From Candidatus Zixiibacteriota bacterium (GTDB taxonomy: Bacteria > Zixibacteria > MSB-5A5 > CAIYYT01), in assembly GCA_020853795.1 (NCBI GenBank), contig JADYYF010000052.1:1-47698 (forward strand): a stretch of 47,698 nucleotides of DNA. Reading direction: 5' to 3'. This document shows positions 8,672-26,893 of the stretch, one piece after another. Each line of letters begins with the position of its first letter. The first letter of the stretch is position 1. The notes beneath the pieces were generated by a model, which searched no databases, had not been told where the DNA came from, and saw nothing but the letters and a program-made list of their open reading frames with translations. Position numbers and translations under genes: made by a program.

Positions 8672-9727
8672 TTACGGCTCGAACGGAGCGTCGCCGGCAT
8701 CCTTCGCATGGCACTTGTTGCACAGCGAGCGCTGGTTCAAACTCGGATACGGATTCGGAATCGCATACGATCCGGACTCGACACCGTCTTCGTGCAGGAA
8801 GGTGATGTTGAAGTCCCAACGGCCGGCGTTCTGGGCCGAGGTCGCATGGGCGCGATGACAGGTGATGCAGGTCACCTGGCTGGTCGCCGACGGACCATTG
8901 GTCGAGGTCGTCGTGTTGGTCGGATCTTCAAACGGAACCGCCGCAATGTACGCGGTCGCCTGGGTCCCACCCGTCATGTTGTCGGTGCCGTTGTACAGAT
9001 TGTAGATGTTGGCAATCGTACCGCCAATGGCGCGGCCGGTCGGGTGAATCAGCTTGGTCGCGTTGTTGTGGAAATCGCCGTGGCAATTGCCGCACCACGC
9101 ACCCATGCCGCTCTTGTAAGCAGTGTGCATGACATTGGTCTCAGCCGTATTGTAGCTATTGCCTTCGGCATCCGGAGCCGGAGCCGTGAACGTGGCCAAA
9201 CCGTCTTGGATCGGGCCAACGCCGTTCAGCAAACGGAAATTCTGGTTGCCGTGCGGATCATGGCACGACGTGCAACCCAGTTGGCTGGCCGGGAACGTAC
9301 CGCCCGGGGAAACGAGCAACGTTCCGTCCGGACCGGCACCACGACCAGGAGCATTGATATTGTGACCGGCTGCACGGCCCGGAATCGGGCTGGTCGCGCC
9401 GCCGTGACCGTCATTAATATTGTCCTCAGTCAAGAACACGAAGTTGCCGCCGCCCTTTTCGGCCGGCGGGTTCAACGGATCCGTGCCCCACACTGCACCG
9501 CGGCTGGTGGCATGGCACGACAAGCACAGGTCGCTCGCCGACTGGAACTTCAGCAGGTAGGCGTTTCCGTTCGGATGAGCCGGGTCCACCAGGACGCCGT
9601 TGTTCATATTGTGCATCGTATGGCAACCGCCGCAATACGCCACGCCGCCATCATGGAATGCAAACGCAGTGCTTGACAACAATGCCGCCAACGACATCGA
9701 GACAAGGACTAACAAAAGCTTGCGCAT
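8672..9727 (-). CDS. OmcS/OmcE-like hexaheme cytochrome, predicted extracellular nanowire subunit
   Basis: The protein has 351 residues from ATG at 9727, with GGAGG 8 nt upstream. A Sec signal ends at TAFA, so the mature chain begins FHDGG. There are six CXXCH motifs at precursor residues 32, 68, 152, 212, 287 and 336. From memory of Geobacter OmcS, the match extends well beyond heme motifs: the N-terminus FHxGGVAxCxGCHTMHN, then PGGTFPASQLGCTSCHDPHG, WCGNCHGDFHN, the TIANIYNLY region, TAYIAAVPFED, CHRAHA, and the C-terminal LCNKCHAKD. His16 of the mature protein, which in OmcS ligates a heme of the neighbouring subunit, is conserved at the same position. The mature chain of 328 residues is shorter than OmcS but keeps six hemes. 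It follows the NHL gene by 19 nt and a terminator closes the operon. Polymerisation is predicted, not shown. Confidence 0.9.
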   Translation of the reverse strand: MRKLLLVLVSMSLAALLSSTAFAFHDGGVAYCGGCHTMHNMNNGVLVDPAHPNGNAYLLKFQSASDLCLSCHATSRGAVWGTDPLNPPAEKGGGNFVFLTEDNINDGHGGATSPIPGRAAGHNINAPGRGAGPDGTLLVSPGGTFPASQLGCTSCHDPHGNQNFRLLNGVGPIQDGLATFTAPAPDAEGNSYNTAETNVMHTAYKSGMGAWCGNCHGDFHNNATKLIHPTGRAIGGTIANIYNLYNGTDNMTGGTQATAYIAAVPFEDPTNTTTSTNGPSATSQVTCITCHRAHATSAQNAGRWDFNITFLHEDGVESGSYAIPNPYPSLNQRSLCNKCHAKDAGDAPFEP

Positions 9728-9746
9728 GTAAAAAACCTCCGAAAGA

Positions 9747-10886
9747 CTAATCAGATACAAACGAACGTGAATTCAACAAGGGGGTAGTAAACTCCAGACT
9801 CACCTCCTCCTTCTGCGCTTCGCGCTTCCAAGGCTTAAGGGTTGCTGATGAGGTTGGTTTCGCAAACGACTTCACTTGTTCCGCGATGAACTCCGGCAAC
9901 TCGCACACCTGAACCCGATTAAGAAAAATCTGGCTGACATAAATGCGGCCCAGGTTGTCCACTGCCATGCGCTCCGGATGGTAGAACCACCCCAGCGTAT
10001 TTCCCATCCCGCCGAATTCACCGAGAAATTGACCTGCGGTCGTGAAGCAAACCACGTTGAAACGATGTTTATCGAGAACTAAGACTAAAGCGTGATCGAT
10101 GACGTCCACCGCCGTCGGGAAGTTCAGCTCGCCGATGTTGTTGCCGCGCAGCCCAATCCGCCGCACCAGAGTTCCGGAGAGGTCGTAGACATACACAACG
10201 CCAAACATCGACACGGGCAGGTACAGCAGCTCACCGTCAATCCGCGGCGAGCCCATAACAACTTCCTGGCGCTCTTTCTCGGTCATGTCCGTCACGAGCG
10301 GGAACTCACCCTGATATTTCCCCTCAGCGTCGATCTTGACGATGCGGTCAAACGCGCCGCTCATCAGATAGAGAATGTCCTGACTGTCGATCGCGATGTA
10401 CCGCACGTCAAAAGTGTCGGAGTCAGCGAAATCGATCAGTTCCAGGCGTCCCATCAGCGTGCCGTCGTAGTCAAACTTGAAGACCGACCCGGCGCGCTGC
10501 CGCTGCGTTCCGACGACGTAGATGAATCCGTGCGAATCGACAACCAGATCAGTCGGGCTGCCGAATTCGTCACGCCCCGAGAACTGGAACTTGAAAACTC
10601 CCGAGGTGTCGAAAACCGCCACACGATTATTGCCGGTATCGACAATGAACACTTCATTGAAGCGCTGATCGATGAAGACCTGCTGGGGACGGAGGAGACC
10701 ATTGTTGGTTCCGGGAGGGTCGAGCTTGCGCAGGAACACGGCCGGAACCGACTTCTCAGCCTGCGCCTGCAAACCCGCAGGAAGCAGAACAGCAACGAGA
10801 AATGCCGTTAAGACAACGACGCCCACTAGGGCAGTTATAATCCGGATGTTCTTCCCGATACAACTCTGTCGATTCGTCGCTGGCAA
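9747..10886 (-). CDS. Exported or membrane-anchored NHL-repeat beta-propeller protein
   Basis: The protein has about 379 residues. No ATG is available near the 5' end. I chose TTG at 10886 because GGAG lies 9 nt upstream; a TTG at 10910 would add eight residues and has no ribosome site. A hydrophobic segment (ITALVGVVVLTAFLVAVLL) is a signal peptide or anchor. Six NHL-type blades follow, with recurring 'P..V.VD..G.IYV' and 'N.RV.VFD..G.F...F' patterns, for example FIVDTGNNRVAVFD, SPTDLVVDSHGFIYVV and PERMAVDNLGRIYVS. The blades are followed by a charged 60-residue tail. It directly precedes the OmcS-like gene. My recollection is that NHL genes also neighbour omcS in Geobacter, which would suggest a role in filament assembly or surface attachment. 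Confidence 0.82.
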   Translation of the reverse strand: MPATNRQSCIGKNIRIITALVGVVVLTAFLVAVLLPAGLQAQAEKSVPAVFLRKLDPPGTNNGLLRPQQVFIDQRFNEVFIVDTGNNRVAVFDTSGVFKFQFSGRDEFGSPTDLVVDSHGFIYVVGTQRQRAGSVFKFDYDGTLMGRLELIDFADSDTFDVRYIAIDSQDILYLMSGAFDRIVKIDAEGKYQGEFPLVTDMTEKERQEVVMGSPRIDGELLYLPVSMFGVVYVYDLSGTLVRRIGLRGNNIGELNFPTAVDVIDHALVLVLDKHRFNVVCFTTAGQFLGEFGGMGNTLGWFYHPERMAVDNLGRIYVSQIFLNRVQVCELPEFIAEQVKSFAKPTSSATLKPWKREAQKEEVSLEFTTPLLNSRSFVSD

Positions 10887-11302: not shown

Positions 11303-12103
11303 TCATGGCTTGACTGTAAGAATTGGTGAATTACCACTAACTCGACCCATGTCGTGACAGTCCGTACACATTCCGTCAGCTATCTGTCGAGCAAGTAGAA
11401 ACTCGTTCTCTGAAACAAGACTATGACAAGTTTGACACTCGATATTACCGTCTATGAGGACAAGAAACTCTGGGATGTCTGAGTTTATCTTCAAGGACGA
11501 TGATGGCTTACGAAATCCGGCAACCAGAGGGACCCCGAAAGCGTGACTGGCGCTGACGTGAAACCGCGGCAGGCCGCTTCCTGCAGAGCCCACGACTGCG
11601 TTCCTGCGATCCGCGTCGTGACAAGATAGACAAAACTGGGACGGTTGTTCTGCGAAGGCAAGATCACGCTGAGAGTGAATCAATCTTGCAGCGCCACGAT
11701 GCCCAGGACTTATCGCTGGACGCGTGCCGACACCATGGCAGTCCCGGCATAACTGAATCGCAGTCTGTGCAAATGAGAGGGACAAGGTGTCATCACTGAT
11801 TGTCAGAAGTTCCGGCGCGTGAAACAGGTGGCATCTGCCGCAATTCTCCGTTAAGTCCGAGTGGAATAATCGGGATTTCTCTGTCGCTTCGCGGTGGCAT
11901 CCACGGCAATCCTGAGATCCGCCATCCAGCTCAGCCTCCTGGTCTGCCGTCTTGGAGTACGCGTGGCATTGCCGGCAAGCGACGTCTTGATGCGGATGGC
12001 GGGCACTCGACTCAGCGGAGCCGTCGGGCAGCAAGCGGCCGAAATAGATCAGCCCGATCAACAGGATCAGCGTGCCCAGAGCAATGGCAGAACGCGTTTG
12101 CAC
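11303..12103 (-). CDS. Membrane-anchored heptaheme c-type cytochrome
   Basis: The protein has 266 residues starting at GTG 12103; no ATG is available upstream before an in-frame stop, and no strong ribosome site is seen. Residues 7-24 (ALGTLILLIGLIYFGRLL) form one transmembrane helix with no clear cleavage site, so it is probably anchored in the inner membrane and faces the periplasm. There are seven CXXCH motifs (CRQCH, CRGCH, CGRCH, CRDCH, CLSCH, CQTCH, CTDCH), with HPHQD just before the first and further His residues that could be distal ligands. Its neighbours are the nanowire-like operon downstream and a two-component system upstream, 164 nt away. It could pass electrons from the quinone pool into the periplasm, as NapC/CymA-type or ImcH-type proteins do, but it is not clearly of those families. 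Confidence 0.85.
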   Translation of the reverse strand: MQTRSAIALGTLILLIGLIYFGRLLPDGSAESSARHPHQDVACRQCHAYSKTADQEAELDGGSQDCRGCHREATEKSRLFHSDLTENCGRCHLFHAPELLTISDDTLSLSFAQTAIQLCRDCHGVGTRPAISPGHRGAARLIHSQRDLAFAEQPSQFCLSCHDADRRNAVVGSAGSGLPRFHVSASHAFGVPLVAGFRKPSSSLKINSDIPEFLVLIDGNIECQTCHSLVSENEFLLARQIADGMCTDCHDMGRVSGNSPILTVKP

Positions 12104-12267: not shown

Positions 12268-12984
12268 TCAGGACAGTTCCGAATCGACTTCGCCGGCAGG
12301 CGTGAACTTGTAGCCGGCGCCGCGCAGGGTATGGATGTAGCGGGGGTTGGCCGGGTCCGGTTCGAAGATCTTGCGCAGGCGCAGGATGAAATTGTCGATG
12401 GTGCGCGAAGAGGGATAAACGTGATAACCCCACACTGCGTCGAGAATCATGTCGCGCGAGACGACCTCGTTGGCGTGTTCGACGAGGAATTTCATCGTCA
12501 TACACTCCTTCTGCGACAATTCCACTTCACCGGTCGGGCCCTTGGCGCGGTACGTACGGAAATCCACCCAGTTCTCCGCAAAATCAAAACGCGAGCGATC
12601 CAATTCCACCGTGCCGTACCAGACCTGGCGACGAAAAATCGCCGATACGCGCAGCAACAGTTCCTGGAGATTGAAGGGCTTGGTTATGTAGTCATCGCCG
12701 CCGCTGAGGAAACCGTCGATGCGATCCGACTGGCGGTCGCGGGCGGTCAAGAACAGCACCGGCAGCCGCCCGCCTTCCTGGCGGATTTCCCTGCAAACGG
12801 TGAGCCCGTCCTTGCCGGGGATCATGATGTCCAGAATGATCAAGTCAAACTGTCCTTTGTGGTAAAGGTCGAGCGCGGCGATCCCGTCGGCCGCGACCGC
12901 AACCTCGTAGCCTTCCGCCTCAAGATTCAGCTGCAGCCCTTCGGCAATGTGCTCTTCGTCTTCGACAACTAATATGCGTTTCAT
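12268..12984 (-). CDS. OmpR/PhoB-family response regulator
   Basis: The protein has 238 residues from ATG at 12984. A receiver domain spans residues 1-120, with acidic pair E8-D9, phospho-acceptor Asp52 (in LIILDIMIPGKDG), a Thr in LFLTARD and Lys in ITKPF. A winged-helix DNA-binding domain spans about 140-230 (LSQKECMTMKFLVEH, VSRDMILDAVWG, RTIDNFILRLRKIFE, HTLRGAGYKF). The start overlaps the stop of the histidine kinase gene (ATGA), so the pair is translationally coupled and certainly cognate. The genes upstream in the same run (surface barrel, kinase-like lipoprotein, PAP2) suggest an envelope or phosphate-related signal, but no target site could be identified. Confidence 0.95.
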   Translation of the reverse strand: MKRILVVEDEEHIAEGLQLNLEAEGYEVAVAADGIAALDLYHKGQFDLIILDIMIPGKDGLTVCREIRQEGGRLPVLFLTARDRQSDRIDGFLSGGDDYITKPFNLQELLLRVSAIFRRQVWYGTVELDRSRFDFAENWVDFRTYRAKGPTGEVELSQKECMTMKFLVEHANEVVSRDMILDAVWGYHVYPSSRTIDNFILRLRKIFEPDPANPRYIHTLRGAGYKFTPAGEVDSELS

Positions 12985-14318
12985 GCAACCTTCTCCAACG
13001 GCAGCCGGATGCGGAAGGTACAACCGCGATCGCGACCCTCTGAGTACAGCTCAACCGTCCCGCCGTGCTCGGTAACGATTTGTTTTACGAGAAATAGGCC
13101 GATGCCGGTTCCTTTGACCGAACGCGTGTTCTCCATACCCGTTCGATAGAAGCGCTCAAAGACCTTCTTCAACTCGTGTTTTTCCACACCAACGCCTTCA
13201 TCCACGAACAGCAATTCGGCTTGATCGCCGCGCCGGCGCGCGCTGATGCTCAGCCGGCGCCGTACCTCCGGCGAGTACTTGATCGCGTTATCGACCAATG
13301 CCGTTACGACTCTCCGTAACGCGTGATAGTCGGTCTTGACGATCAGTTCCTTCTCAAGATCGAGGGTCAACTTCATTTTATGACGGTCGATCAGAGCCTG
13401 CAACCCCTCCAGATACTCGACCAGATCATTCGACAGGTTAGTCTCAACCAGCTTGGCCCGATGGCCGCGCTGGGACAATCGCCCGGCCTCCAGAACGTTG
13501 TCGACCAGCCCTTCCAATCTTTCGCAGTCGTCAAGCATGCGCGGGACGAATCCCTTGATCTTCTCCTGGTCAAATTTGCCGGAGGCCATCGATTCCAGGT
13601 ACAACTTGATCGAAGCCACCGGGATTTTCAGCTCGTGCGTAACCGCATGGATGAAGTTCTCCTGCTGATGCTTCAGGCTCTCCGACTGCCGCAGGGTGCG
13701 ATAGATCATGAAGGCGCCCAATAGCGTCAACAATACGAAGAATGATCCCTCCATGGCGAACATGACGACGCGGCGGCGGGCGCGCTCCTGAACTTCCGCG
13801 GTTACCCCCGCTTTGACACTGAACATCGATGGTTCAAACCACGGATTGCGATACTCGCCCTGCCGCGGCGCGGCCGTGAACTGCAAATCGGCATTCAACT
13901 CCGTCGTAAGCTGCGCAGGATAGGTCGGATCCAGAAAGATCGCGGCCCGATGATTCGCGCCGACGCTCAGGTAGAAGCTGGAATCAACCTCCCCGGAAGT
14001 TATCAGCAGCGCTCCCGTCGGACCGAACAACTGGTAACCTCTCACTGCCGGATCGGCCAGCAACAGGTCGAGTGCTGCCCGCAGATGTCCGATATTATCG
14101 ACGCTGACGAACGATTCCGCCTCATACGCCAGCCGGTCATAGGATCGGTTCAGAATCAGCGAAGCCAGTTGTGCTGCCGCCGCCGTCTGTCGCTCGTGGA
14201 ACTCGATCTGTTCCTTGGAAATCATGACTTGAAAGTACACCCACCAGATGATCTGGCCGATGCAGACAATGACAAGCGCGATGAACAGCGCCAGCGCCAA
14301 CCCCGCCGGACGTGCCAA
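12981..14318 (-). CDS. Sensor histidine kinase
   Basis: The protein has 445 residues if read from TTG at 14318. Two transmembrane helices (about 8-31 and 184-206) flank a periplasmic sensor of about 150 residues with no recognised fold. The catalytic part has HisKA with phospho-acceptor His228 (HAVTHELKIPV), N-box VDNAIKYSP, G1 box FVDEGVGVEKHE, F-box FERFYR and G2 box GTGIGLFLVKQIV. A strong AGGAGG (14344-14349, minus) lies 18-30 nt before the TTG, too far for it, but ideally placed for ATT at 14336-14334. That would add six residues in frame (IRIKHR before the L of the TTG), a natural cationic start. The stop overlaps the response regulator start. Confidence 0.93.
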   Translation of the reverse strand: MARPAGLALALFIALVIVCIGQIIWWVYFQVMISKEQIEFHERQTAAAAQLASLILNRSYDRLAYEAESFVSVDNIGHLRAALDLLLADPAVRGYQLFGPTGALLITSGEVDSSFYLSVGANHRAAIFLDPTYPAQLTTELNADLQFTAAPRQGEYRNPWFEPSMFSVKAGVTAEVQERARRRVVMFAMEGSFFVLLTLLGAFMIYRTLRQSESLKHQQENFIHAVTHELKIPVASIKLYLESMASGKFDQEKIKGFVPRMLDDCERLEGLVDNVLEAGRLSQRGHRAKLVETNLSNDLVEYLEGLQALIDRHKMKLTLDLEKELIVKTDYHALRRVVTALVDNAIKYSPEVRRRLSISARRRGDQAELLFVDEGVGVEKHELKKVFERFYRTGMENTRSVKGTGIGLFLVKQIVTEHGGTVELYSEGRDRGCTFRIRLPLEKVA

Positions 14319-14387: not shown

Positions 14388-15257
14388 TCACAGGGGCAAT
14401 GTAATCATGAAAATCGGCTTTTCAATACCGTTTGCATCCGAAACGGCCTCGGCCTGGTCGGCCAGACGATAGAATAATTCGGCGAGCAGAGCTCCAGCAA
14501 CAGCGCCGACTGCAACATCGGAAAGAAAATGCTTGTAGCAGCGAATCCGGGTCACACCGACGTAGCTGCTCCAACTGAAAAGAACGGTCGGCGGCAGCCA
14601 TCGCCAGTTGTGGTAGTCGCTGGAAGACAGTCGTTGCCGCATTGCGGTGCGGACCCGCTTGTTCAGGTAGGTCATTGCGAAGAAGGAACTGGAGGCGTGC
14701 CCGGAAAAGAATGACTTGCGCGTCTCGGAATAGTCCGGCTCGTGCCTGCGCGCCGAGTCCGGATAGTAGTATTGAAAAGGTCGTGGGCGTGCGATGAGGT
14801 GCTTGGCGATGCCGGTCACACCGGCCGTTGCCCAGATCCCGCAGTTGTAGAGGTATAGATCCTGCAAAGCATCCTTGCCGGGTCGCCGTTCTGGCCAGGT
14901 AAGATTGACGGCAGCTAATCCCAGAGCACCCGCAACCGGCGTGATCGCTGAACCGATATCGCCATCCAGAAAATTGGACTTGCCCGCAAAGTATCGCCCG
15001 CCCAGCGCATGCGCCGCCCAGTTGTCAAGCAGGATCGGGCGATTGATCAAGGCCGGTTGCGCGCTGTCGTTTGGGGGAAGGGATTGCTCCACAATCAATG
15101 GCACAGCCGCTCCTACCCCGATCAACACGCTCTTGCGTTCGGTCAGATATGTCTTCCGTAAACTTGTCGCTGTGCCGTCGCCCGGCAGGAGTATCAGAAT
15201 CCACGCGACCAGCGCGAGCGACGGTAGCAGAAGAGTGGGTCTGGAGTAAAACCGCAT
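14388..15257 (-). CDS. PAP2-superfamily membrane phosphatase
   Basis: The protein has 289 residues from ATG at 15257, 4 nt after the stop of the upstream lipoprotein gene; a TTG at 15269 is also in frame. The three PAP2 motifs are present: KHLIARPRPF, SFFSGHASSSFF with the catalytic His in SGH, and TRIRCYKHFLSDVAVG with the second His and the Asp. The N-terminus is a signal or transmembrane segment (LLLPSLALVAWILILL), and a weaker hydrophobic stretch follows at VLIGVGAAVPLIV. PAP2 enzymes remove phosphate from lipid substrates such as undecaprenyl pyrophosphate, phosphatidic acid or lipid A. The active site would face the periplasm. It shares an operon with a barrel, a kinase-like lipoprotein and a two-component system. 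Confidence 0.88.
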   Translation of the reverse strand: MRFYSRPTLLLPSLALVAWILILLPGDGTATSLRKTYLTERKSVLIGVGAAVPLIVEQSLPPNDSAQPALINRPILLDNWAAHALGGRYFAGKSNFLDGDIGSAITPVAGALGLAAVNLTWPERRPGKDALQDLYLYNCGIWATAGVTGIAKHLIARPRPFQYYYPDSARRHEPDYSETRKSFFSGHASSSFFAMTYLNKRVRTAMRQRLSSSDYHNWRWLPPTVLFSWSSYVGVTRIRCYKHFLSDVAVGAVAGALLAELFYRLADQAEAVSDANGIEKPIFMITLPL

Positions 15258-15261
15258 TCTC

Positions 15262-16971
15262 TTAATCAAGATGCTCGATACCGACCAACTCCAGTTGCCC
15301 GGTTTCGGGATGGAACCATAGCCACGCGAGTGCCGGTTTGCTCCAGCTGCTGTCGCTGCGTTTGGTTTCGATACGGATTTCGACTAGGTGATCGCGGTCG
15401 GAAGGCGATTTGTGCGCTGCGAAGGCGGCGGCAACCTTCGCGATCAAATCCTGATTCAGCTCAATCGAAGTCTCGGTGAACTGCGTCCATTCGGAGACAG
15501 CGCGATCTCGTGCGCGACACGTCCAGCGGTACTTGGTTGTCGACGCTGTCTCCAAACTGTACCGCACGGCCAGGTCGTCAAATCGCAGTCGCGGTCCGGC
15601 CGGCGATATTTCAAGTGTAAAGTCGTCCAGCGGATTGACCCGACCAAACCAGTAACGGCCGATCTTCTCGCGCCGCTCCATGAGCGTCTTGATCAGATAC
15701 GCTTCGGCTTCAGGATCGGAATACTTACCGGCGGCGACGAGGGCGCGCAAATACTCCTCACGCCATGCCATGACCACCTTGGCGCCCCAATAAGCATCAC
15801 GCGCGGTCAGATTTTCGAAGGCCGGGTTGGGGACAATAACATCCCATTTGTTCGGCTGAAAGATCTCCGACTCGAAATAGCCGATTGTCTTGTATTGGTA
15901 GGGTTGGGCGTCTTCCCAGCCCCACTTCTTCAGCCCCAGTGTGAACCATGACACCAAGACATCGCGGAGGTCGAATATGTTGCAGTATCCCTGCTTCGGC
16001 CCCTTCGGCCGATTGCTGTTGGCCCCGAAGGTCGACCCGAAATCAATCAAATGGTGTTTGACATAGCGGCGCTCGCCTTCGGTCACGTACAAGTCGAGCG
16101 TATTCTGGTCCTTGGCGTCATAGTGATTGATGAGCGAAGCGATCACATACAGCCCGCGCAATTCGCGGCGATTCTCGTGCGGACACCAATCATTGGGGTC
16201 GTCCTTCCTGCGTCCGTCATAGCTGAATGGTCCCACGACCTTGCCGGGGAGTAATTTTGAGGCCAATGAGCGAATGCGGCCATCAGGAAGCCGGTAGACG
16301 TCCTTGAGCATGTCGTCAAGATATTCCTGCGTAAACTCGCGCGTTTTCCCCGAGCGGTCGGTGAAGGTAATTCCGGGCTGAATCTGGAGCTGTTCCGGCC
16401 GCCAATAAACAATGGTCTCCTCCGGGACATTATAACCGCAGGCATGAAAGTAGCGTGAACCCATGGCCGCGGCCGCCGTGGCAATCTCCGGATTATCCGA
16501 TGGATCAAACTTCATGATGTATTGATCGCCGCGCACATCCTTGATCCAGAACCCGATGGTGAAACCCTGTATCTTTGGACGGGAGACAATCCACGGACCG
16601 GTGGTGTCGGGGCCGGGAGCGTCATTCGGACCCCGCTCAACTTCAGCCGGATCGATAGCATCGATGCCGATCCGGTTTGTGAACCAGCTGCTGTTGGCCA
16701 CTCCGTCGAATCGCGTCATGTTGTAAGCTTCACGTGGCCGACCGATCAGCTTGCGGAAGTTGCGATCCATGTCCAGCAACTGCTCGCCCTGTTCCCACAC
16801 CGACCGGTCCAGCGATTGCCAGGCAAGCACCGGATCTGCCAGTTTCGGCGCGGGAATCGTCTGGTTGTCGTGCTCGCTTGACGGTTCTCCCCCCGGATGA
16901 TAGACGAGCTTGTGACTGCTGCAGCCCACCGTCACGGCCGCAATCAGCAGGAGTCCAAACCCAATTCTCAC
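15262..16971 (-). CDS. Lipoprotein with protein-kinase-like (Fam20/HipA/PI-kinase-like) motifs
   Basis: The protein has 569 residues from GTG at 16971, which overlaps the upstream stop (GTGA). It has a lipoprotein signal with lipobox VTVGC (Cys17), so it is exported and lipid-anchored. The central part carries kinase-type motifs in the correct order: Lys154 in YIMKFDP (ATP-anchoring Lys), Glu162 nearby (possible helix-C Glu), His283-Asp285-Lys287-Asn290 in HYDAKDQN (catalytic loop HxDxKxxN) and Asp310-Phe-Gly in HLIDFGSTFG (metal-binding DFG). The last 120 residues look like a beta-rich domain. I do not recognise a named family. An exported atypical kinase, or a dead kinase fold used for binding, are both possible. 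Neighbours are a surface barrel and a PAP2 phosphatase. Confidence 0.7.
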   Translation of the reverse strand: MRIGFGLLLIAAVTVGCSSHKLVYHPGGEPSSEHDNQTIPAPKLADPVLAWQSLDRSVWEQGEQLLDMDRNFRKLIGRPREAYNMTRFDGVANSSWFTNRIGIDAIDPAEVERGPNDAPGPDTTGPWIVSRPKIQGFTIGFWIKDVRGDQYIMKFDPSDNPEIATAAAAMGSRYFHACGYNVPEETIVYWRPEQLQIQPGITFTDRSGKTREFTQEYLDDMLKDVYRLPDGRIRSLASKLLPGKVVGPFSYDGRRKDDPNDWCPHENRRELRGLYVIASLINHYDAKDQNTLDLYVTEGERRYVKHHLIDFGSTFGANSNRPKGPKQGYCNIFDLRDVLVSWFTLGLKKWGWEDAQPYQYKTIGYFESEIFQPNKWDVIVPNPAFENLTARDAYWGAKVVMAWREEYLRALVAAGKYSDPEAEAYLIKTLMERREKIGRYWFGRVNPLDDFTLEISPAGPRLRFDDLAVRYSLETASTTKYRWTCRARDRAVSEWTQFTETSIELNQDLIAKVAAAFAAHKSPSDRDHLVEIRIETKRSDSSWSKPALAWLWFHPETGQLELVGIEHLD

Positions 16972-18257
16972 CAGTCGCTCCCGAGTTCGAAGTAAAGACG
17001 CCAGCTTTCGTCGGAATAGGCGACTTGCGCGCTGAGGACAACCTCCTCGCTACGCCAGACTCGCAAGCCGGTGCCGAGACTTTCCGACCAATTACGCAGC
17101 GTGAACTCCTCGGTCACTGATGAAAAAACCCTTCCCGCCTCGGCGAAGATGAAGGCATCAATCATGTCCCAGATCGGATAGCGATACTCCAGTGTCGCCA
17201 ACATGCGGTCGTTGTCGACGAAGCGGCTGCTGAGAAATCCGCGCAGGTCGTCGCGGCCGCCCAACCGACTCTTGAGGTAGAAGGGAAGCACACCGTCGTC
17301 CTCGTCGGCGTCGACGGTCTCCGCGAGCAAGCGTATCGCCAGGATTCGTTTCTTGTAGATATTGAAGTAGTGCGCGATCTCGCCGGAGACCGCCACGAAC
17401 CGGATGTCATCGAAATGGCCGACGCCGTGGCTGTAGGCAATCGCCAGCCGCTCGCGTCCGCCGGCGGACGGCTGGCCTTTGACATCGCGCCAGTCATGAT
17501 CGATTGCCACGCCGCCGCGGATCAAGCGACTGCGGCGGAAATCGGCCGCCGCCATGCCGAACTTGTCTTGGATTTCATTCAGATCCGTGACCAGAGTCTT
17601 GTTCTTGCCACCGCTGATATTGCTGGCAACAAACGCGGCTTCAAAATCAATCTGCCATTGCGGACCGACGCGCCAGTTGTTGACGGCCGCGAATTCAGTC
17701 TGCTCCAGTGCAAACGAAACCTTGTCCTCATCGCGACTGGTGTATCCGAGGCCATAGAAGTTTTCGCGCGGTCGCCAGCGGTAGGCAGCGCGCAAGCTCA
17801 GACCGGATCGTTTCGAGAATAGCTGCGGCGCGACATAACTGGTTTCGAAGCGCTTATACTGGTGCGTTGAGAGCGTCCCGACGATGCGCCAGCGATCGTG
17901 CGGTGAAAAGACTTGCGTCCTGGTATAGCTGAGGCCAAGCCTGACACCGCCGTTGGAACTGTAGGACACTACCGGTGCCGGGCCCAACGACGGCTGAAAC
18001 GAGAACACATAATTGGCGAACCGCCGCACCGTGGGGTTACGGTAGATGCCGTTCATCGCCGCCCAGCTGAGTCCCTTGCCGACATAGATGGGCGTCTTCA
18101 GGATCGTCTCCGGCACGTCCAGCAGGCGATCACCGAAATTCTTTTTCGGCGCAACTGGTCGAAGATTCAGCGTCGAGTCGGCCTCGGTTTGCGCAGCCAG
18201 CGTCACCTGCAGAAACAGAAGGAGAAGCACACAGCCGGCGGGTATGAGTTTTCGCAA
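16968..18257 (-). CDS. Surface-antigen (Omp85/BamA-barrel-like) outer-membrane protein without POTRA domains
   Basis: The protein has about 429 residues from TTG at 18257, chosen because GGAG lies 10 nt upstream and it starts a textbook signal peptide (LRKLIPAGCVLLLLFLQVTL, cleavage near LAAQ). A GTG at 18278 is an alternative. After a short linker come about a dozen amphipathic strands. The C-terminal half has the Omp85 barrel signature LGGRDDLRGFLSSR, followed by LATLEYRYPIWDMIDAFIFAEAG and LGTGLRVWR. POTRA repeats are absent, so it resembles stand-alone Bac_surface_Ag barrels rather than BamA or TamA. It is the first gene of a run continuing with the kinase-like lipoprotein and PAP2, and is divergent from the large hybrid kinase gene. 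Confidence 0.8.
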   Translation of the reverse strand: MRKLIPAGCVLLLLFLQVTLAAQTEADSTLNLRPVAPKKNFGDRLLDVPETILKTPIYVGKGLSWAAMNGIYRNPTVRRFANYVFSFQPSLGPAPVVSYSSNGGVRLGLSYTRTQVFSPHDRWRIVGTLSTHQYKRFETSYVAPQLFSKRSGLSLRAAYRWRPRENFYGLGYTSRDEDKVSFALEQTEFAAVNNWRVGPQWQIDFEAAFVASNISGGKNKTLVTDLNEIQDKFGMAAADFRRSRLIRGGVAIDHDWRDVKGQPSAGGRERLAIAYSHGVGHFDDIRFVAVSGEIAHYFNIYKKRILAIRLLAETVDADEDDGVLPFYLKSRLGGRDDLRGFLSSRFVDNDRMLATLEYRYPIWDMIDAFIFAEAGRVFSSVTEEFTLRNWSESLGTGLRVWRSEEVVLSAQVAYSDESWRLYFELGSDW

Positions 18258-18402
18258 TTGGGGCAAACTCCGCTCCACGATTAACGTATCAAGACATTCC
18301 GATTCGAAGCGCTGGGAATATAGCCGGAGCAGCAACCCGCGTCAAGCAATAGGAAAATCCGGCGGAGTTTCCGGCTTGTCTGCGCGCCGGCGCACTACTA
18401 TT

Positions 18403-21883: not shown

Positions 21884-23407
21884 ATGCTCCGGTCGCTGAC
21901 CCGCGTCTTCGATATACGTCCCGGCGAGCGCCGGCTGACAGCCTTGATGGCGCTCAGCTACTTCCTGCTCCTCTCAACTTTCTATTTCCTCAAATCGGCC
22001 CGCGATTCGCTGTTTCTCTTCAAGCTGACCCCGGAGCAACTTCCGTTGGTCTTTATCGTTTCGGCCTTGGCATCCATCCCGATCGCCGGGTTCTACATCA
22101 GAGCTTCGCGGCGGCTCTCTCTTCTCAATCTGATCGTCGGCACCTCCTTCGTGTTGATTGCCTGTCTGGTTCTCTTGCGCTATCTGCTCGCCGTCGGCTC
22201 AAGCTGGGTCTTTTACGCTTTCTATGCCTGGGTGGGAGTATACGGAATTCTGGTAACGGCGCTGTTTTGGCTCCTGGCCAATGCCGTTTTCGACGTCCAG
22301 CAAGCCAAGCGGCTGTTCACGTTTCTCGGAGCCGCGGGAATCCTGGGTGCGTTCTGCGCCGGTGAAGCGACGAGTCTGTTGATCAATCGGGTTCATCTGG
22401 CGACGGAGAACTTGATCATCCTCGCTGCCGCGATCCTGGTTCTCGCCACGCTGGTCATCGCGCAGTTGGCCAAGCTGCATCACGAGTCCACCCGAGAAAG
22501 AGAGAGCAGCGCAAGGCCCGAAGACGGTTCGACCCTGCCTACGATCGAAGTCTTGCAGACCGTGCGGAAGTCCCGGCTCCTGCAGACGATCGTCGCCTTG
22601 ATCGCTGTCGCCGTCATGACTTCGACCATCATCGACTTTGTCTTTAAGGAGATCTGCTTCAACGCGTACGGGGGCAGCAAGCAGGAGTTGACGGCCTTCT
22701 TTGGCGTCTTCTATGGACGCGTCAGTCTGCTGGCGCTCGTGATTCAGCTGCTGCTCACCTATCCGTTGGTTCGTCGGCTGGGGGTCGGCGGAGTCATCGT
22801 GATCATGCCTCTGACCCTGATCGGTACCTCGCTCGGTGTGATCGTCGCGCCGCTCCTGTTGCCGGCGTTGGCGCTGAAAGGCTCGGAGGGTCTGCTGGAG
22901 TACTCGGCTGATCGCAGTGGCCGGGAACTACTGTTCATGCCGTTGTCGCTGGATCTCAAGAAACGCGTGAAAGTCTTTGTCGATGTCTTCGTTGATCGGC
23001 TCTTTCGCGGCGTGGCCGGCGTCGTGCTGCTGGTCGCCACCGGCGTCTTCGCCTTTGGCGCCCGGCAGATGGCTGTCATTGCCGCCGTCCTGGCGCTGGT
23101 CTGGCTGCTCATCGCGCTGGTCGTCCGCCGGGAATATGTCGAAACCTTCAGGTTGGCAATCGAACATCGCGATATCGACATTTCCGACCTTCGTACCGCG
23201 ATTGATGATTCGCAAACGCTGAAAATGCTGACCGGCTACCTTTCCAGTCCCCATGAACGCCAGGTGACCTATGCGCTCGATCTGCTCAAGTCGGCTCGCG
23301 ATCCGAGTCTGGTCGAGAGCATCAGTTCGCTGCTGCGCCACGCCTCACCCGAGGTCCGCCGGCGCGCGGTCGAGGTCTTGCAGGAATATCATGAGCTTGT
23401 TAAGTGA
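21884..23407 (+). CDS. ADP/ATP-translocase-like (NTT/TLC) or MFS transporter with C-terminal HEAT repeats
   Basis: The protein has 507 residues from ATG at 21884 (GGGAG upstream). Residues about 15-420 carry some 11-12 transmembrane helices with features of the bacterial and plastid nucleotide transporter family: ALSYFLLLSTFYFLKSARDSLF in the first helix, IDFVFKEICFNAYGG, and LLFMPLSLDLKKRVKVFVDVFVDR, a loop typical of NTT-like proteins. The C-terminal 80 residues are soluble and helical (LKMLTGYLSSPHERQVTYAL, SLLRHASPEVRRRAVEVL), that is HEAT repeats. Free-living bacteria carry NTT-like proteins of unknown substrate; ATP/ADP exchange should not be assumed. It overlaps the following HEAT gene by 17 nt, so the HEAT array is in effect continued by the next protein. 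Confidence 0.8.
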   Translation: MLRSLTRVFDIRPGERRLTALMALSYFLLLSTFYFLKSARDSLFLFKLTPEQLPLVFIVSALASIPIAGFYIRASRRLSLLNLIVGTSFVLIACLVLLRYLLAVGSSWVFYAFYAWVGVYGILVTALFWLLANAVFDVQQAKRLFTFLGAAGILGAFCAGEATSLLINRVHLATENLIILAAAILVLATLVIAQLAKLHHESTRERESSARPEDGSTLPTIEVLQTVRKSRLLQTIVALIAVAVMTSTIIDFVFKEICFNAYGGSKQELTAFFGVFYGRVSLLALVIQLLLTYPLVRRLGVGGVIVIMPLTLIGTSLGVIVAPLLLPALALKGSEGLLEYSADRSGRELLFMPLSLDLKKRVKVFVDVFVDRLFRGVAGVVLLVATGVFAFGARQMAVIAAVLALVWLLIALVVRREYVETFRLAIEHRDIDISDLRTAIDDSQTLKMLTGYLSSPHERQVTYALDLLKSARDPSLVESISSLLRHASPEVRRRAVEVLQEYHELVK

Positions 23408-24644
23408 AATTGAAGCGCTCCTGGGCGACGATGATCTGGGAGTGCGGCGCGAGGCCATCTACTTGCTTTACCTCAAAGCTGGAGCGGCAAAAACCGAACT
23501 TCTCCGCCAGTTTCTCAACCACGCCGACCCGCGCTTGCAGACGGCTGTTGTGGCATGTCTGGCCGAGCACCAATTACCGGAAGCTCACGACTTGCTCGAC
23601 GAAGATCGCTTGGAGACGTTTCTCGTTCGCACGGATGGCGATGCCGAGACCGGACGACTGGAAACCGCCAAACTCCTGGGTGTACTGGCGGGCGAGCACT
23701 TCGGCGTCTTTCTTGCCCAGTTGCTCGCCGATGAGTCGCCGGTGGTCGTGCGGGAAGCTATCGCCTCCGCCGGTCGTCGACGTGACGCCAACTTCATCCC
23801 AGCCCTGATCGACAAATTGGCCGATCGGCGCTTCCGCGGCGCAGCTAAACCGGCGCTGGCAGCGTATGGGGCGGAAATCCTGCCCCGCTTGCAGACTCTG
23901 CTCCTCGATCCGGCAACCCCGGATGTGATCCGGCGCAATGTGCCGAGCGTTATTCATCGCATCATCCACCAACAGTCGGTCGATCTGCTCATCGTCGCCG
24001 CCGGTCAGGTGCCGGACCATCAGAAATTCGCCATCGTGCGCGCGCTCAACAAACTGCGGCAGGCTTCGCCGCGGCTACGCTTTCCGCCAGCCGCGATCGC
24101 AGACTTGGTGGTTGCCGAGGCGCGACGCGCGCTCCTGCTGGTGGAGGCCGGCATGATCCTGTCACGCGAAACGACCGACGCGGTCGATCGCCTCTGCCTG
24201 CGCGCCGTCAACGAACGCCGCCGCGACGCGCTGGAATTGGTGTTCCGGCTGCTTGGATTGCTCTATCCGTCGCAGGACATCTACGGCGCGTACCTGCGCA
24301 TCAGCAGCGACCGGCGCGAGCATCAAATCAACGCCGTCGAGTATCTGAGCAATCGCCTGACCGGCGCGGTCCGCGGCCATGTTCTGCCGCTGATCGAAGG
24401 TCACACTCCCGCGGCGATCCTCGAACTGGCGGCGCCGGTCTATCGCCGGCAAATGATGACTCCGGTCGACGCTCACCGCCTGATGCTCGGCAGCGCCGAC
24501 TACTGGCTGAAAGCCTGCGGCCTGTATGCCGCCCGGCGGGTGCCATTCGCCGACCTGCGCGCCCATCTCCGCGACGCCGCCTTTGACAATTCGGCGATTG
24601 TCCGCGAAACGGCGCTGGCGGTTGCCGCTGAACTTGGTTATTAG
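23391..24644 (+). CDS. HEAT-repeat protein
   Basis: The protein has 417 residues from ATG at 23391, inside the end of the transporter gene, with AGGA about 7 nt upstream. It is a soluble alpha-solenoid: repeated helical pairs such as LLSEIEALLGDDDLGVRREAI, LRQFLNHADPRLQTAVVACL, LLADESPVVVREAIASAG, LADRRFRGAAKPALAAYG and LRDAAFDNSAIVRETALAVA. No catalytic motif or signal peptide is seen. The overlap with the transporter gene, which itself ends in HEAT repeats, points to a cytoplasmic partner bound to the transporter. Next comes a cNMP-fold gene 17 nt downstream. Confidence 0.82.
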   Translation: MSLLSEIEALLGDDDLGVRREAIYLLYLKAGAAKTELLRQFLNHADPRLQTAVVACLAEHQLPEAHDLLDEDRLETFLVRTDGDAETGRLETAKLLGVLAGEHFGVFLAQLLADESPVVVREAIASAGRRRDANFIPALIDKLADRRFRGAAKPALAAYGAEILPRLQTLLLDPATPDVIRRNVPSVIHRIIHQQSVDLLIVAAGQVPDHQKFAIVRALNKLRQASPRLRFPPAAIADLVVAEARRALLLVEAGMILSRETTDAVDRLCLRAVNERRRDALELVFRLLGLLYPSQDIYGAYLRISSDRREHQINAVEYLSNRLTGAVRGHVLPLIEGHTPAAILELAAPVYRRQMMTPVDAHRLMLGSADYWLKACGLYAARRVPFADLRAHLRDAAFDNSAIVRETALAVAAELGY

Positions 24645-24661
24645 TATTTGCGGTTGGTGTG

Positions 24662-25108
24662 ATGCTGACGACGATCGAAAAAGTGATTCTGTTGCAGGCG
24701 GTGGATGTCTTCGCCGATGTACCCACGGCCAATCTGGCCTATATCGCCGCCATTGCCGAAGAGGTCAGCTTCGCGGCCGGTACGACAATCTTCAGCGAAG
24801 GTGATCCGGCGACGGCCATGTTCTTCGTCCTCGACGGCCGCGTCAGTCTGCAGCGCGACGGCAACGAAATTGCCGTGGCGGAAGCCAACCAGGGTTTCGG
24901 CGTCTGGGCACTGTTCGACGAAGAGCGGCGCGTGGTCACCGCCACCACCGTCACCACTGTGCGCCTGTTGCGGATCGAAAGTGAGAGCTTTGCCGAAATC
25001 CTTGCCGACCACGCCGAAATCGCCCAGTTCCTCCTCAAGACCCTGACGCGGCGGCTGCGCAGCATTATGGAGCGCCTGCAACTGGAGCATGGCCGCCGTC
25101 CGGCTTGA
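24662..25108 (+). CDS. Cyclic-nucleotide-binding-fold protein (CRP-like effector domain, no HTH)
   Basis: The protein has 148 residues from ATG at 24662; a GTG codon lies directly before it. It is a single cNMP-binding fold: VDVFADVPTANLAYIAA, FSEGDPATAMFFVLDGRVSL, then the position of the phosphate-binding cassette FGVWALFDEERRVVTATT, and the final helix. The usual Glu of the FGExALL cassette and the Arg of R(S/A)A are not in the standard places (VWALFDEERR), so binding of cAMP or cGMP is doubtful. It has no DNA-binding domain and so is not the regulator of the CRP-like sites in this window. As part of the transporter-HEAT run it may gate or regulate that transporter. Confidence 0.82.
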   Translation: MLTTIEKVILLQAVDVFADVPTANLAYIAAIAEEVSFAAGTTIFSEGDPATAMFFVLDGRVSLQRDGNEIAVAEANQGFGVWALFDEERRVVTATTVTTVRLLRIESESFAEILADHAEIAQFLLKTLTRRLRSIMERLQLEHGRRPA

Positions 25109-25143
25109 CATTTGCCCCGTCAAGCATTACCAATTCAAACGGA

Positions 25144-26370
25144 ATGTCGAAGGATAAGGCTGATATCAAGAACCCAGTTAATCCACCTTCGGTCATGATT
25201 GTGGATGACGAGGAAATCGTCCTGACCAGCCTGCAGTCGTTGCTGCGGCTGGACACCGACTATCGCGTCGTCACTTTTCGCTCGCCCGTCGAGGCGCTGG
25301 CGGAGCTGCAGAAACATCCGGTTGACGCCGTCATCTCCGATTTTCTGATGCCGCAAATGAACGGCCTGCAATTCCTCGCCGAGGTCAAGCGCCTGTATCC
25401 CTCCGTGCCGCGCATCCTGCTGACCGGCTATGCCGACAAGGGCAACGCAATTAATGCCATCAATGAAGTGGGTCTGTATCAGTACATCGAGAAGCCATGG
25501 GACAACGATCACATCAAGCTGGTGCTGCGCAATAGCCTGGCGACGAAGTCGCTGGAGGAGACACTGCAACAGAAATTGCGCGAGCTGGACGAGGTGCTGC
25601 GCCATCGCGATGCCCTCGCCACCCGCGAAGGGATGCTGCGGCAGGAGCTCGATCTGGCGCGACAGGTGCAACAAAACCTGCTGCCGCGGCGACTTCCGGA
25701 GGCCAACGGATTGCGCATTGCCGCCAAGTACGAGCCGGTGCTCGAAATCGGCGGCGACTACTACGATATTCAGGAACTCGACGAGAGTCGGCTCGGGATC
25801 CTGGTTGCCGATGCCACCGGCCACGGCATCCAGGCGGCACTCAGTACGGCGTTGCTCAAATTCGCGTTCAGTACGTTGATCAAATCCGGTCAATCGCTGC
25901 CGGAAATCGTTACCGGCATGAATGAGATCCTGGGGCGCGGCCTGCCGGAAAATTCCTTTGTCGCGGCGATCGTCGCGATTCTGGACAAACGGCAGAAGTC
26001 GGTCGAGATCATCAACGCCGGGCTGCCGCATCCGCTGATCTGGCGGCGCGCCGCCACCACAGTCGAGCGGGTCGCCGCCAACGGGTTGTTCCTCGGCATC
26101 GACCTGCCCCTGAGCTACTGCGCCAGCGAAGCGACCACCGTCTCGCTCGGGCCGGGTGATCGTTTACTGCTGTACAGCGACGGCCTCAGCGAAGTGCCCG
26201 GCCGGGACGGCCGCTTCTTCGGCGATGCCACCATGATCGAGGAAATCGAACGACACGCCGCCACTCCACTGGAACAACTGCTCGATTGGCTGCTGCAGTC
26301 CTCGCGCGAGTTCTGCGACGGCTCGCAGGAACCTGACGACACAACCATTGTTGCAATAGAGACAATTTGA
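25144..26370 (+). CDS. Response regulator with PP2C-type (RsbU/SpoIIE) phosphatase output
   Basis: The protein has 408 residues from ATG at 25144; a TTG at 25105 overlapping the previous stop is the alternative. The receiver (about 15-135) has VDDEE, phospho-acceptor Asp in VISDFLMPQMNG, Thr in LLTGYAD and Lys in IEKPWD. A coiled coil (about 140-185) leads into a SpoIIE/PP2C domain (about 200-405) with metal ligands in IGGDYYD, LVADATGHG, LLLYSDGLSE and PDDTTIVA. Such proteins dephosphorylate anti-sigma-factor antagonists or similar partners when the receiver is phosphorylated. No anti-sigma factor or antagonist is encoded nearby. Its receiver is strikingly similar to that of the next gene. 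Confidence 0.93.
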   Translation: MSKDKADIKNPVNPPSVMIVDDEEIVLTSLQSLLRLDTDYRVVTFRSPVEALAELQKHPVDAVISDFLMPQMNGLQFLAEVKRLYPSVPRILLTGYADKGNAINAINEVGLYQYIEKPWDNDHIKLVLRNSLATKSLEETLQQKLRELDEVLRHRDALATREGMLRQELDLARQVQQNLLPRRLPEANGLRIAAKYEPVLEIGGDYYDIQELDESRLGILVADATGHGIQAALSTALLKFAFSTLIKSGQSLPEIVTGMNEILGRGLPENSFVAAIVAILDKRQKSVEIINAGLPHPLIWRRAATTVERVAANGLFLGIDLPLSYCASEATTVSLGPGDRLLLYSDGLSEVPGRDGRFFGDATMIEEIERHAATPLEQLLDWLLQSSREFCDGSQEPDDTTIVAIETI

Positions 26371-26389: not shown

Positions 26390-26893
26390 ATGTCGAATAC
26401 TGCCAAAGATTCTTCCGCTCTCGATAAACGCGAGACCATCGTTATCGTCGATGACGAGGAGATGGTCATTACCAGCCTGAGCTCCTTCCTGAGTCTGGAA
26501 ACGGAATACAACGTCAAAGCTTTCACTTCCGTGCAACAGGCGCTCGAATTCATCGGCGCCAATGATGTCGATCTCGTCATGTCCGACTATCTGATGCCGG
26601 AGATGGACGGCATCACGTTTCTGGCCAAGGTCCGCGACCTCAAACCGCAGGTACCGCGCATTATCCTGACCGGCTACGCCGACAAGGAGAACGCCATCAA
26701 AGCAATCAACGAGGTCGGCCTGTTCCAGTACCTGGAAAAGCCGTGGGATAACGACGATATCCTCATTGTCCTGCGCAACGGCCTCGAACGCAACAAGCTG
26801 ATGAAAAAGCTGCAGGAAAAGATCGACGAGATCAACCGCGCCTATGCCGAACTTCAGGTGCTGCAGCGCGAAATCGTCAAAGCGTTCGTCTGA
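26390..26893 (+). CDS. Stand-alone response regulator (RpfG-type receiver)
   Basis: The protein has 167 residues from ATG at 26390, 19 nt after the phosphatase gene. It is a receiver domain (VDDEEMV, Asp in LVMSDYLMPEMDG, Thr in IILTGYAD, Lys in LEKPWDNDD) followed by a C-terminal coiled coil of about 30 residues and no output domain. The stretch VPRIILTGYADKENAIKAIN is nearly the same as in the preceding PP2C regulator, so the pair looks like a duplication. It may compete for phosphate or act as a single-domain adaptor for the large hybrid kinase encoded upstream. Confidence 0.9.
   Translation: MSNTAKDSSALDKRETIVIVDDEEMVITSLSSFLSLETEYNVKAFTSVQQALEFIGANDVDLVMSDYLMPEMDGITFLAKVRDLKPQVPRIILTGYADKENAIKAINEVGLFQYLEKPWDNDDILIVLRNGLERNKLMKKLQEKIDEINRAYAELQVLQREIVKAFV

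Follow-up and report, generated by a model that had tools for sequence, protein, structure and literature searches.

The window analyzed here (the whole stretch of 47,698 nucleotides, part of a 3.56-Mb draft genome) encodes an exported, lipid-anchored protein that is predicted to adopt a kinase fold and whose phosphotransfer site, on sequence and model evidence, is intact. By the gene for this protein, which we call KIN, the closest relatives of the source organism belong to the candidate phylum Zixibacteria. On balance we favor, by a modest degree, the reading that KIN is a phosphotransferase working outside the cytoplasm and that an NTT-type transporter provides its ATP by ATP/ADP exchange. 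Whether KIN, a POTRA-less Omp85 barrel, an ATP-exporting exchanger, and an opposing exported phosphatase together form a widespread bacterial extracytoplasmic ATP-driven phosphorylation system is, in our judgment, an evenly balanced question. KIN lies in a run of genes on one strand:

16968-18335, minus strand: POTRA-less Omp85-type 16-strand outer-membrane barrel (PF01103, 3.8e-14; structure model)
15262-16971, minus strand: KIN, a 569-aa exported lipoprotein predicted to have a kinase fold; GTG start
14388-15269, minus strand: PAP2-superfamily phosphatase/phosphotransferase (PF01569, 1.5e-20; 8-nt overlap with KIN)
12981-14318, minus strand: sensor histidine kinase of the KIN operon (PF00512 and PF02518; gap of 69 nt)
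12268-13023, minus strand: OmpR-type response regulator of the KIN operon (PF00072 and PF00486)

An ORF check placed the GTG start codon at 16969-16971 and the stop codon at 15262-15264, in agreement with the reading frame, strand, and coordinates given in a preliminary description of this DNA, and the gene positions and Pfam matches likewise agree with its placement of KIN between an upstream barrel gene and a downstream PAP2 gene. The GTG start and the end of the barrel gene share 4 nt (GTGA). Since the successive gaps from the barrel through KIN, PAP2, and the histidine kinase to the response regulator are -4, -8, +69, and -43 nt, these genes look like a single operon. Downstream of it, genes at 8672-9760 and 11303-12103 on the minus strand encode proteins that resemble multihaem c-type cytochromes and contain many CxxCH motifs. 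The parts of KIN itself are as follows:

16921-16971, minus strand: signal peptide and lipobox ending in Cys17 (..AAVTVGC-SS; conserved Cys, hydrophobic segment)
15652-16593, minus strand: kinase core, residues 127-440 (predicted secondary structure; VIA-align matches span 118 to 449)
16510-16512, minus strand: Lys154, the invariant beta-3 lysine (81/81; aligned with the HipA_2 lysine)
16042-16119, minus strand: catalytic loop D285-x-x-x-x-N290 and Asp310 of D310-F-G (81/81; HipA_2 alignment)
15301-15636, minus strand: C-terminal fibronectin-III-like (FN3-like) domain, residues 446-557 (VIA-align, Foldseek)

The only hydrophobic segment of KIN spans residues 1 to 19 and forms a signal peptide with a lipobox Cys, the Thr at position -3 making for a weak lipobox in the window member. 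A Cys aligned with C17 is found in 61 of 75 homologues, which upholds the earlier view of an exported, lipid-anchored protein. Because the homologues without this Cys mostly keep a signal peptide-like N terminus (judged by eye), export appears to be a trait of the family as a whole.

The AlphaFold2 model of KIN (pLDDT 84.9, pTM 0.87; 29-sequence alignment) is a two-lobed kinase followed by the FN3-like domain, so that the two-lobed core on which the preliminary description had staked its kinase reading is present in the predicted structure. The best PDB matches retrieved by Foldseek were Fam20C, Fam20A, and CtkA, and VIA-align gave Z scores of 13.8 for CtkA, 13.3 for Fam20C, 12.5 for PI4KIIalpha, 12.1 for CotH, and 9-11 for HipA-type proteins, with kinase matches covering about 230-260 residues at 4-5 A rmsd. 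The families that come out on top are thus the very ones (Fam20, HipA, CotH, and PI-kinases) that had been named beforehand for such a search. Matches of the C-terminal domain to cytokine-receptor and FN3 domains reached a Z of about 8 in VIA-align and were also found by Foldseek. Profile alignment against HipA_2 (PF20613; probability 95%, E 2.7e-8) pairs K154, D285, N290, and D310 with the corresponding K, D, N, and D of HipA_2, an equivalence drawn from profile alignment and not from residue-level structure alignment. KIN is accordingly predicted to combine a two-lobed core with the beta-3 Lys, catalytic Asp, metal-binding Asn, and DFG-type Asp of a kinase fold.

At the level of sequence searches, the window protein had no match above the curated HipA_2 and HipA_C Pfam cut-offs; sub-threshold HipA_2 matches were found in 9 of 42 family members, the best of them weak (E 0.004). 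There was no Pfam match between KIN and CotH (PF08757), and hhalign with a small, divergent CotH set gave a probability of 0.3%; Pfam and PDB sequence searches detected no homology to Fam20, despite the matching folds. Neither the protein nor the family profile matched a kinase among PDB sequences, and KIN bears no curated Pfam or NCBIfam name.

A scan of species genomes retrieved 252 related stretches, of which 80 were kept, giving a set of 81 sequences from about 15 phyla. The kept set covers Zixibacteria, Calditrichota, KSB1, Latescibacterota, Acidobacteriota, and Gemmatimonadota, as well as Poribacteria, Eisenbacteria, Krumholzibacteria, Omnitrophota, Nitrospira, and others; in Zixibacteria, 35 of 132 genomes carry a homologue, and no relative was found in viral contigs. 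The window protein reads K154, E162, H283-Y-D285-A-K287-D-Q-N290, and D310-F-G at the motif positions. K154, D285, N290, H306, D310, F311, and G316 are each present in all 81 homologues, H283 is found in 74, and position 287 holds K in 65 sequences and R in another 15. In a 42-sequence alignment (34-53% identity), 27 of 569 columns are invariant, including all four catalytic positions, and the chance that four preselected positions fall in such columns is about 4e-6. The two glutamate positions behave differently: position 162 is E in 66 of the 81 homologues and Gly in 10, and the helix-C Glu of HipA_2 aligns by profile not with it but with position 168. At that position, 50 of the 81 have E, whereas Ala stands there in the window protein and in most of its close relatives. 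Thus, of the kinase-type motifs claimed in the preliminary description, Lys154, Asp285, Asn290, and Asp310 stand, whereas Glu162, not being the helix-C Glu, falls; its phrase "full set" was an overstatement, as the site is complete for phosphate transfer and not for the Lys-Glu pair. Degenerate paralogues lacking the full catalytic set occur at loci L178, L184, L186, L189, and L192, with an intact copy in the same genomes.

The barrel is the most constant neighbor of KIN. Across the 81 loci, 69 same-strand barrel-KIN pairs were counted, the two genes mostly lying within a few nucleotides of each other; contig edges and missed ORF calls account for several of the exceptions, and L071 and L107 each hold two such pairs. 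The model of the window barrel (pLDDT 86) has 16 strands after a short helical N terminus, lacks POTRA domains, and matches TamA and BamA best (E 1e-15). With an Omp85 barrel (PF01103) and no POTRA, it agrees with the noNterm Omp85 proteins, which are known by sequence and have no firmly assigned function (PMC4104836), but it differs from them in being translationally coupled to a kinase lipoprotein. The constancy of this pairing, together with the Ala in place of the helix-C Glu and the existence of degenerate paralogues, would also fit a noncatalytic pseudokinase, that is, a lipoprotein that partners or regulates the barrel. We think this quite improbable, as the four catalytic residues do not vary among homologues from diverse phyla and a scaffold has no need of the D285 and D310 pair.

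The gene that follows KIN varies among phyla. In Zixibacteria, it usually encodes a PAP2 protein, sometimes after an exported protein (c6), and in other phyla, it often encodes a calcineurin-like phosphoesterase that bears a signal peptide or lipobox. With only about 19 loci in which it is close to KIN, mainly from Zixibacteria, PAP2 was rejected as a universal partner. This restricted distribution also bears on another reading, in which KIN is an exported kinase-fold enzyme that uses a donor other than ATP, for example undecaprenyl diphosphate or polyphosphate, or catalyzes some other transfer reaction. Kinase-fold proteins can perform other chemistry, and a PAP2 gene does adjoin KIN in the window. 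A precedent for such a donor is LpxT, which phosphorylates lipid A in the periplasm and is linked to undecaprenyl phosphate synthesis (PMC2229476). However, such an enzyme would not be predicted to show the strong transporter association described below, and we consider this reading rather unlikely. In 11 Zixibacteria loci, an exported family of about 420 aa without a Pfam match lies between KIN and PAP2 or the NTT (e.g., L032:11692-12972, L047:4306-5529, and L038:4158-5438); it is possibly a substrate or partner of KIN.

The nucleotide transporter of the window and the genes that follow it lie on the opposite strand from KIN:

21884-23407, plus strand: TLC/NTT ATP/ADP-type nucleotide transporter and start of the HEAT region (PF03219, hydrophobic segments)
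23391-24644, plus strand: HEAT-repeat part of the NTT-HEAT unit, in a separate overlapping ORF (PF13646, 1.7e-9)
24659-25108, plus strand: cyclic-nucleotide-binding-like protein, 3' of NTT-HEAT (PF00027, 1.3e-18)
25105-26370, plus strand: response regulator with a SpoIIE phosphatase domain (PF00072 and PF07228)

The transporter has multiple hydrophobic segments and belongs to the TLC/NTT family by its PF03219 match (54.1 bits against a cut-off of 21). It lies 4.9 kb from KIN in a separate operon. In relatives, the NTT-HEAT unit forms one ORF of about 930 aa, whereas in the window it is divided between two overlapping ORFs, the second starting with an ATG at 23391 within the end of the first; the split may reflect fission, frameshift, or assembly error. 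Response regulators follow the unit at 25105-26370 and 26390-26893 on the plus strand, as they do in several relatives.

A TLC gene lies within 8 kb of KIN in 42 of 81 loci, and in 23 of the 35 loci that have at least 6 kb on both sides of KIN, against an expectation of about 1% under a rough null of 3 transporters placed at random in 4 Mb. Some of these neighboring transporters carry fused HEAT repeats and precede a gene for a cNMP-binding protein. The window transporter, with its HEAT region and following cNMP-binding gene, has the architecture already known for this family (PMC5381601). An assignment of the neighboring cluster to two-component genes was rejected, the Pfam matches being to TLC transporters.

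The association extends from gene neighborhoods to whole genomes. In Zixibacteria, the transporter is present in 30 of 35 genomes with KIN and in 3 of 97 others (P 3e-21); counted by genus, the corresponding table is 22, 4, 2, and 57 (P 3e-14). The Acidobacteriota sample gave 45 of 50 against 50 of 247 (P 4e-21), Calditrichota (the phylum of L062) gave 7 of 7 against 0 of 33, and the phylum of L102 gave 4 of 4 against 0 of 3. In Calditrichota, the same 7 of 40 genomes carry both genes, mostly on different contigs. Among other phyla, the transporter was found in 35 of 36 KIN genomes reached through loci, and it was absent from all 14 well-known control genomes. CotH, taken as an exported-kinase control, showed a weak transporter link (odds ratio 3.4 versus 35 for KIN). 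The link is one-sided, in that KIN nearly implies the transporter but not vice versa; 50 Acidobacteriota genomes have the transporter without KIN, and the transporter must therefore have further roles. These counts are not fully corrected for phylogeny and come mostly from draft metagenome assemblies, with completeness figures for Zixibacteria only, which makes absences soft; as a genomic association, they suggest functional coupling and are not proof of it. Counts of this kind leave some room for the link to be a phylogenetic coincidence, as KIN-positive genomes may form few clades in some phyla; KIN would then be an exported kinase whose donor supply has nothing to do with the NTT. Its recurrence in independent phyla and at the genus level, and a physical proximity far above chance, make such a coincidence very improbable.

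The 10 KIN genomes without a detected transporter in the Zixibacteria and Acidobacteriota sets add a further observation. Every KIN copy lacks Asp285 and/or Asp310 in 4 of these 10 genomes (all copies being degenerate in G095, G097, G188, and G235) and in 0 of 75 with the transporter (P 1e-4, for a criterion chosen post hoc and small numbers). The broader statement that transporter-less kinases are generally degenerate proved too strong, as the four-residue test in Acidobacteriota was not significant (P 0.18) and only the loss of Asp285 and/or Asp310 in all copies separates the two groups of genomes. Intact KIN without a detected transporter occurs in the draft assemblies G069, G091, G191, G353, and G402, and also at L079; the KIN of G094, which lacks the transporter, keeps the four residues and has DFD. 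Transporter-positive genomes also hold degenerate copies beside intact ones.

The characterized NTTs, from intracellular bacteria or parasites and from organelles or plastids, are importers, and the role of NTTs in free-living bacteria is reported as unknown (PMC5381601). The transporter link could then stand for uptake instead of ATP supply: KIN would bind nucleotides outside the inner membrane as a receptor or processing enzyme for nucleotide salvage or sensing, an exported phosphoesterase would trim them, and the NTT would import them. The calcineurin-like phosphoesterases that adjoin KIN and the cNMP-binding and signaling proteins close by fit such a role. Nonetheless, pure binding does not call for a catalytic Asp, while K154, D285, N290, and D310 are retained in 81 of 81 homologues, and where the transporter is missing, the residues that tend to disappear are the catalytic Asps; we therefore regard this reading as unlikely.

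Returning to the phosphotransferase reading, we infer catalysis, the ATP donor, the export direction of the transporter, orientation, the phosphatase role, and the substrate from computed features, namely, fold, export, conservation, co-occurrence, barrel coupling, and transporter proximity. KIN would be a lipoprotein kinase that is outer membrane or periplasm facing, with the nucleotide held by Lys154, Asn290, and Asp310 in a two-lobed fold of the HipA/Fam20/CotH/PI4K type. Asp285 would act as the catalytic base in transferring phosphate to an extracytoplasmic substrate, which might be a protein, lipid, or glycan handled together with the coupled Omp85 barrel. An inner-membrane NTT-type transporter would carry cytosolic ATP out and return the ADP made by the kinase, a direction that is assumed, since characterized NTTs are importers. 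An exported phosphatase (PAP2 in the window, calcineurin-like elsewhere) would reverse the phosphorylation.

The passage of ATP across the inner membrane into the periplasm has been described as unresolved (PMC7432876). Extracytoplasmic kinases have been deemed implausible in bacteria for want of ATP, and the KIN-NTT link suggests a possible route; that an NTT is encoded in the window, as in almost all genomes whose KIN is intact, offers a candidate answer to this objection. A literature search whose scope excluded most subscription journals and all of bioRxiv found no paper linking an exported bacterial kinase to an NTT, and the paper that describes the NTT-HEAT architecture makes no mention of such a link, the word "kinase" being absent from it (PMC5381601). 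The link among an exported kinase, an NTT, and a POTRA-less Omp85 barrel brings three questions into one testable system in about 15 phyla. If correct, the system would be a counterpart to Fam20C of the eukaryotic Golgi and would provide one function for the NTTs of free-living bacteria.

Among known systems, the best structural match is to the HipA-like kinases (HipA_2, PF20613; HipA_C, PF07804; Helicobacter pylori CtkA, Z 13.8), which share with KIN the K, D, N, and D by profile and the D-x4-N and IDxG pattern. KIN differs from them in scoring below the curated cut-offs, in being exported and larger, in its FN3-like domain, and in its coupling to a barrel and link to an NTT. The secretory-pathway kinases Fam20C and Fam20A, the best Foldseek matches (E 7e-5; Z 13.3), act outside the cytosol, as proposed for KIN, but KIN has no sequence-level match to them and is a bacterial lipoprotein. 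The CotH spore-coat kinases (PF08757; Z 12.1) have the same broad fold, are bacterial, and act outside the cytoplasm, but their profile alignment with KIN is not significant, and their co-occurrence with the transporter is weak. CotH is without a DFG motif (PMC12189002). Acidobacteriota also have, at L133 (G450:C156) and L134 (G446:C39), another exported family that is kinase-like and about 350 aa long; it has no Pfam match, gives weak profile matches to KIN, and carries the motifs VKLG, LNSWDLKxxNN, and DVGSSLG or DIGTTFG.
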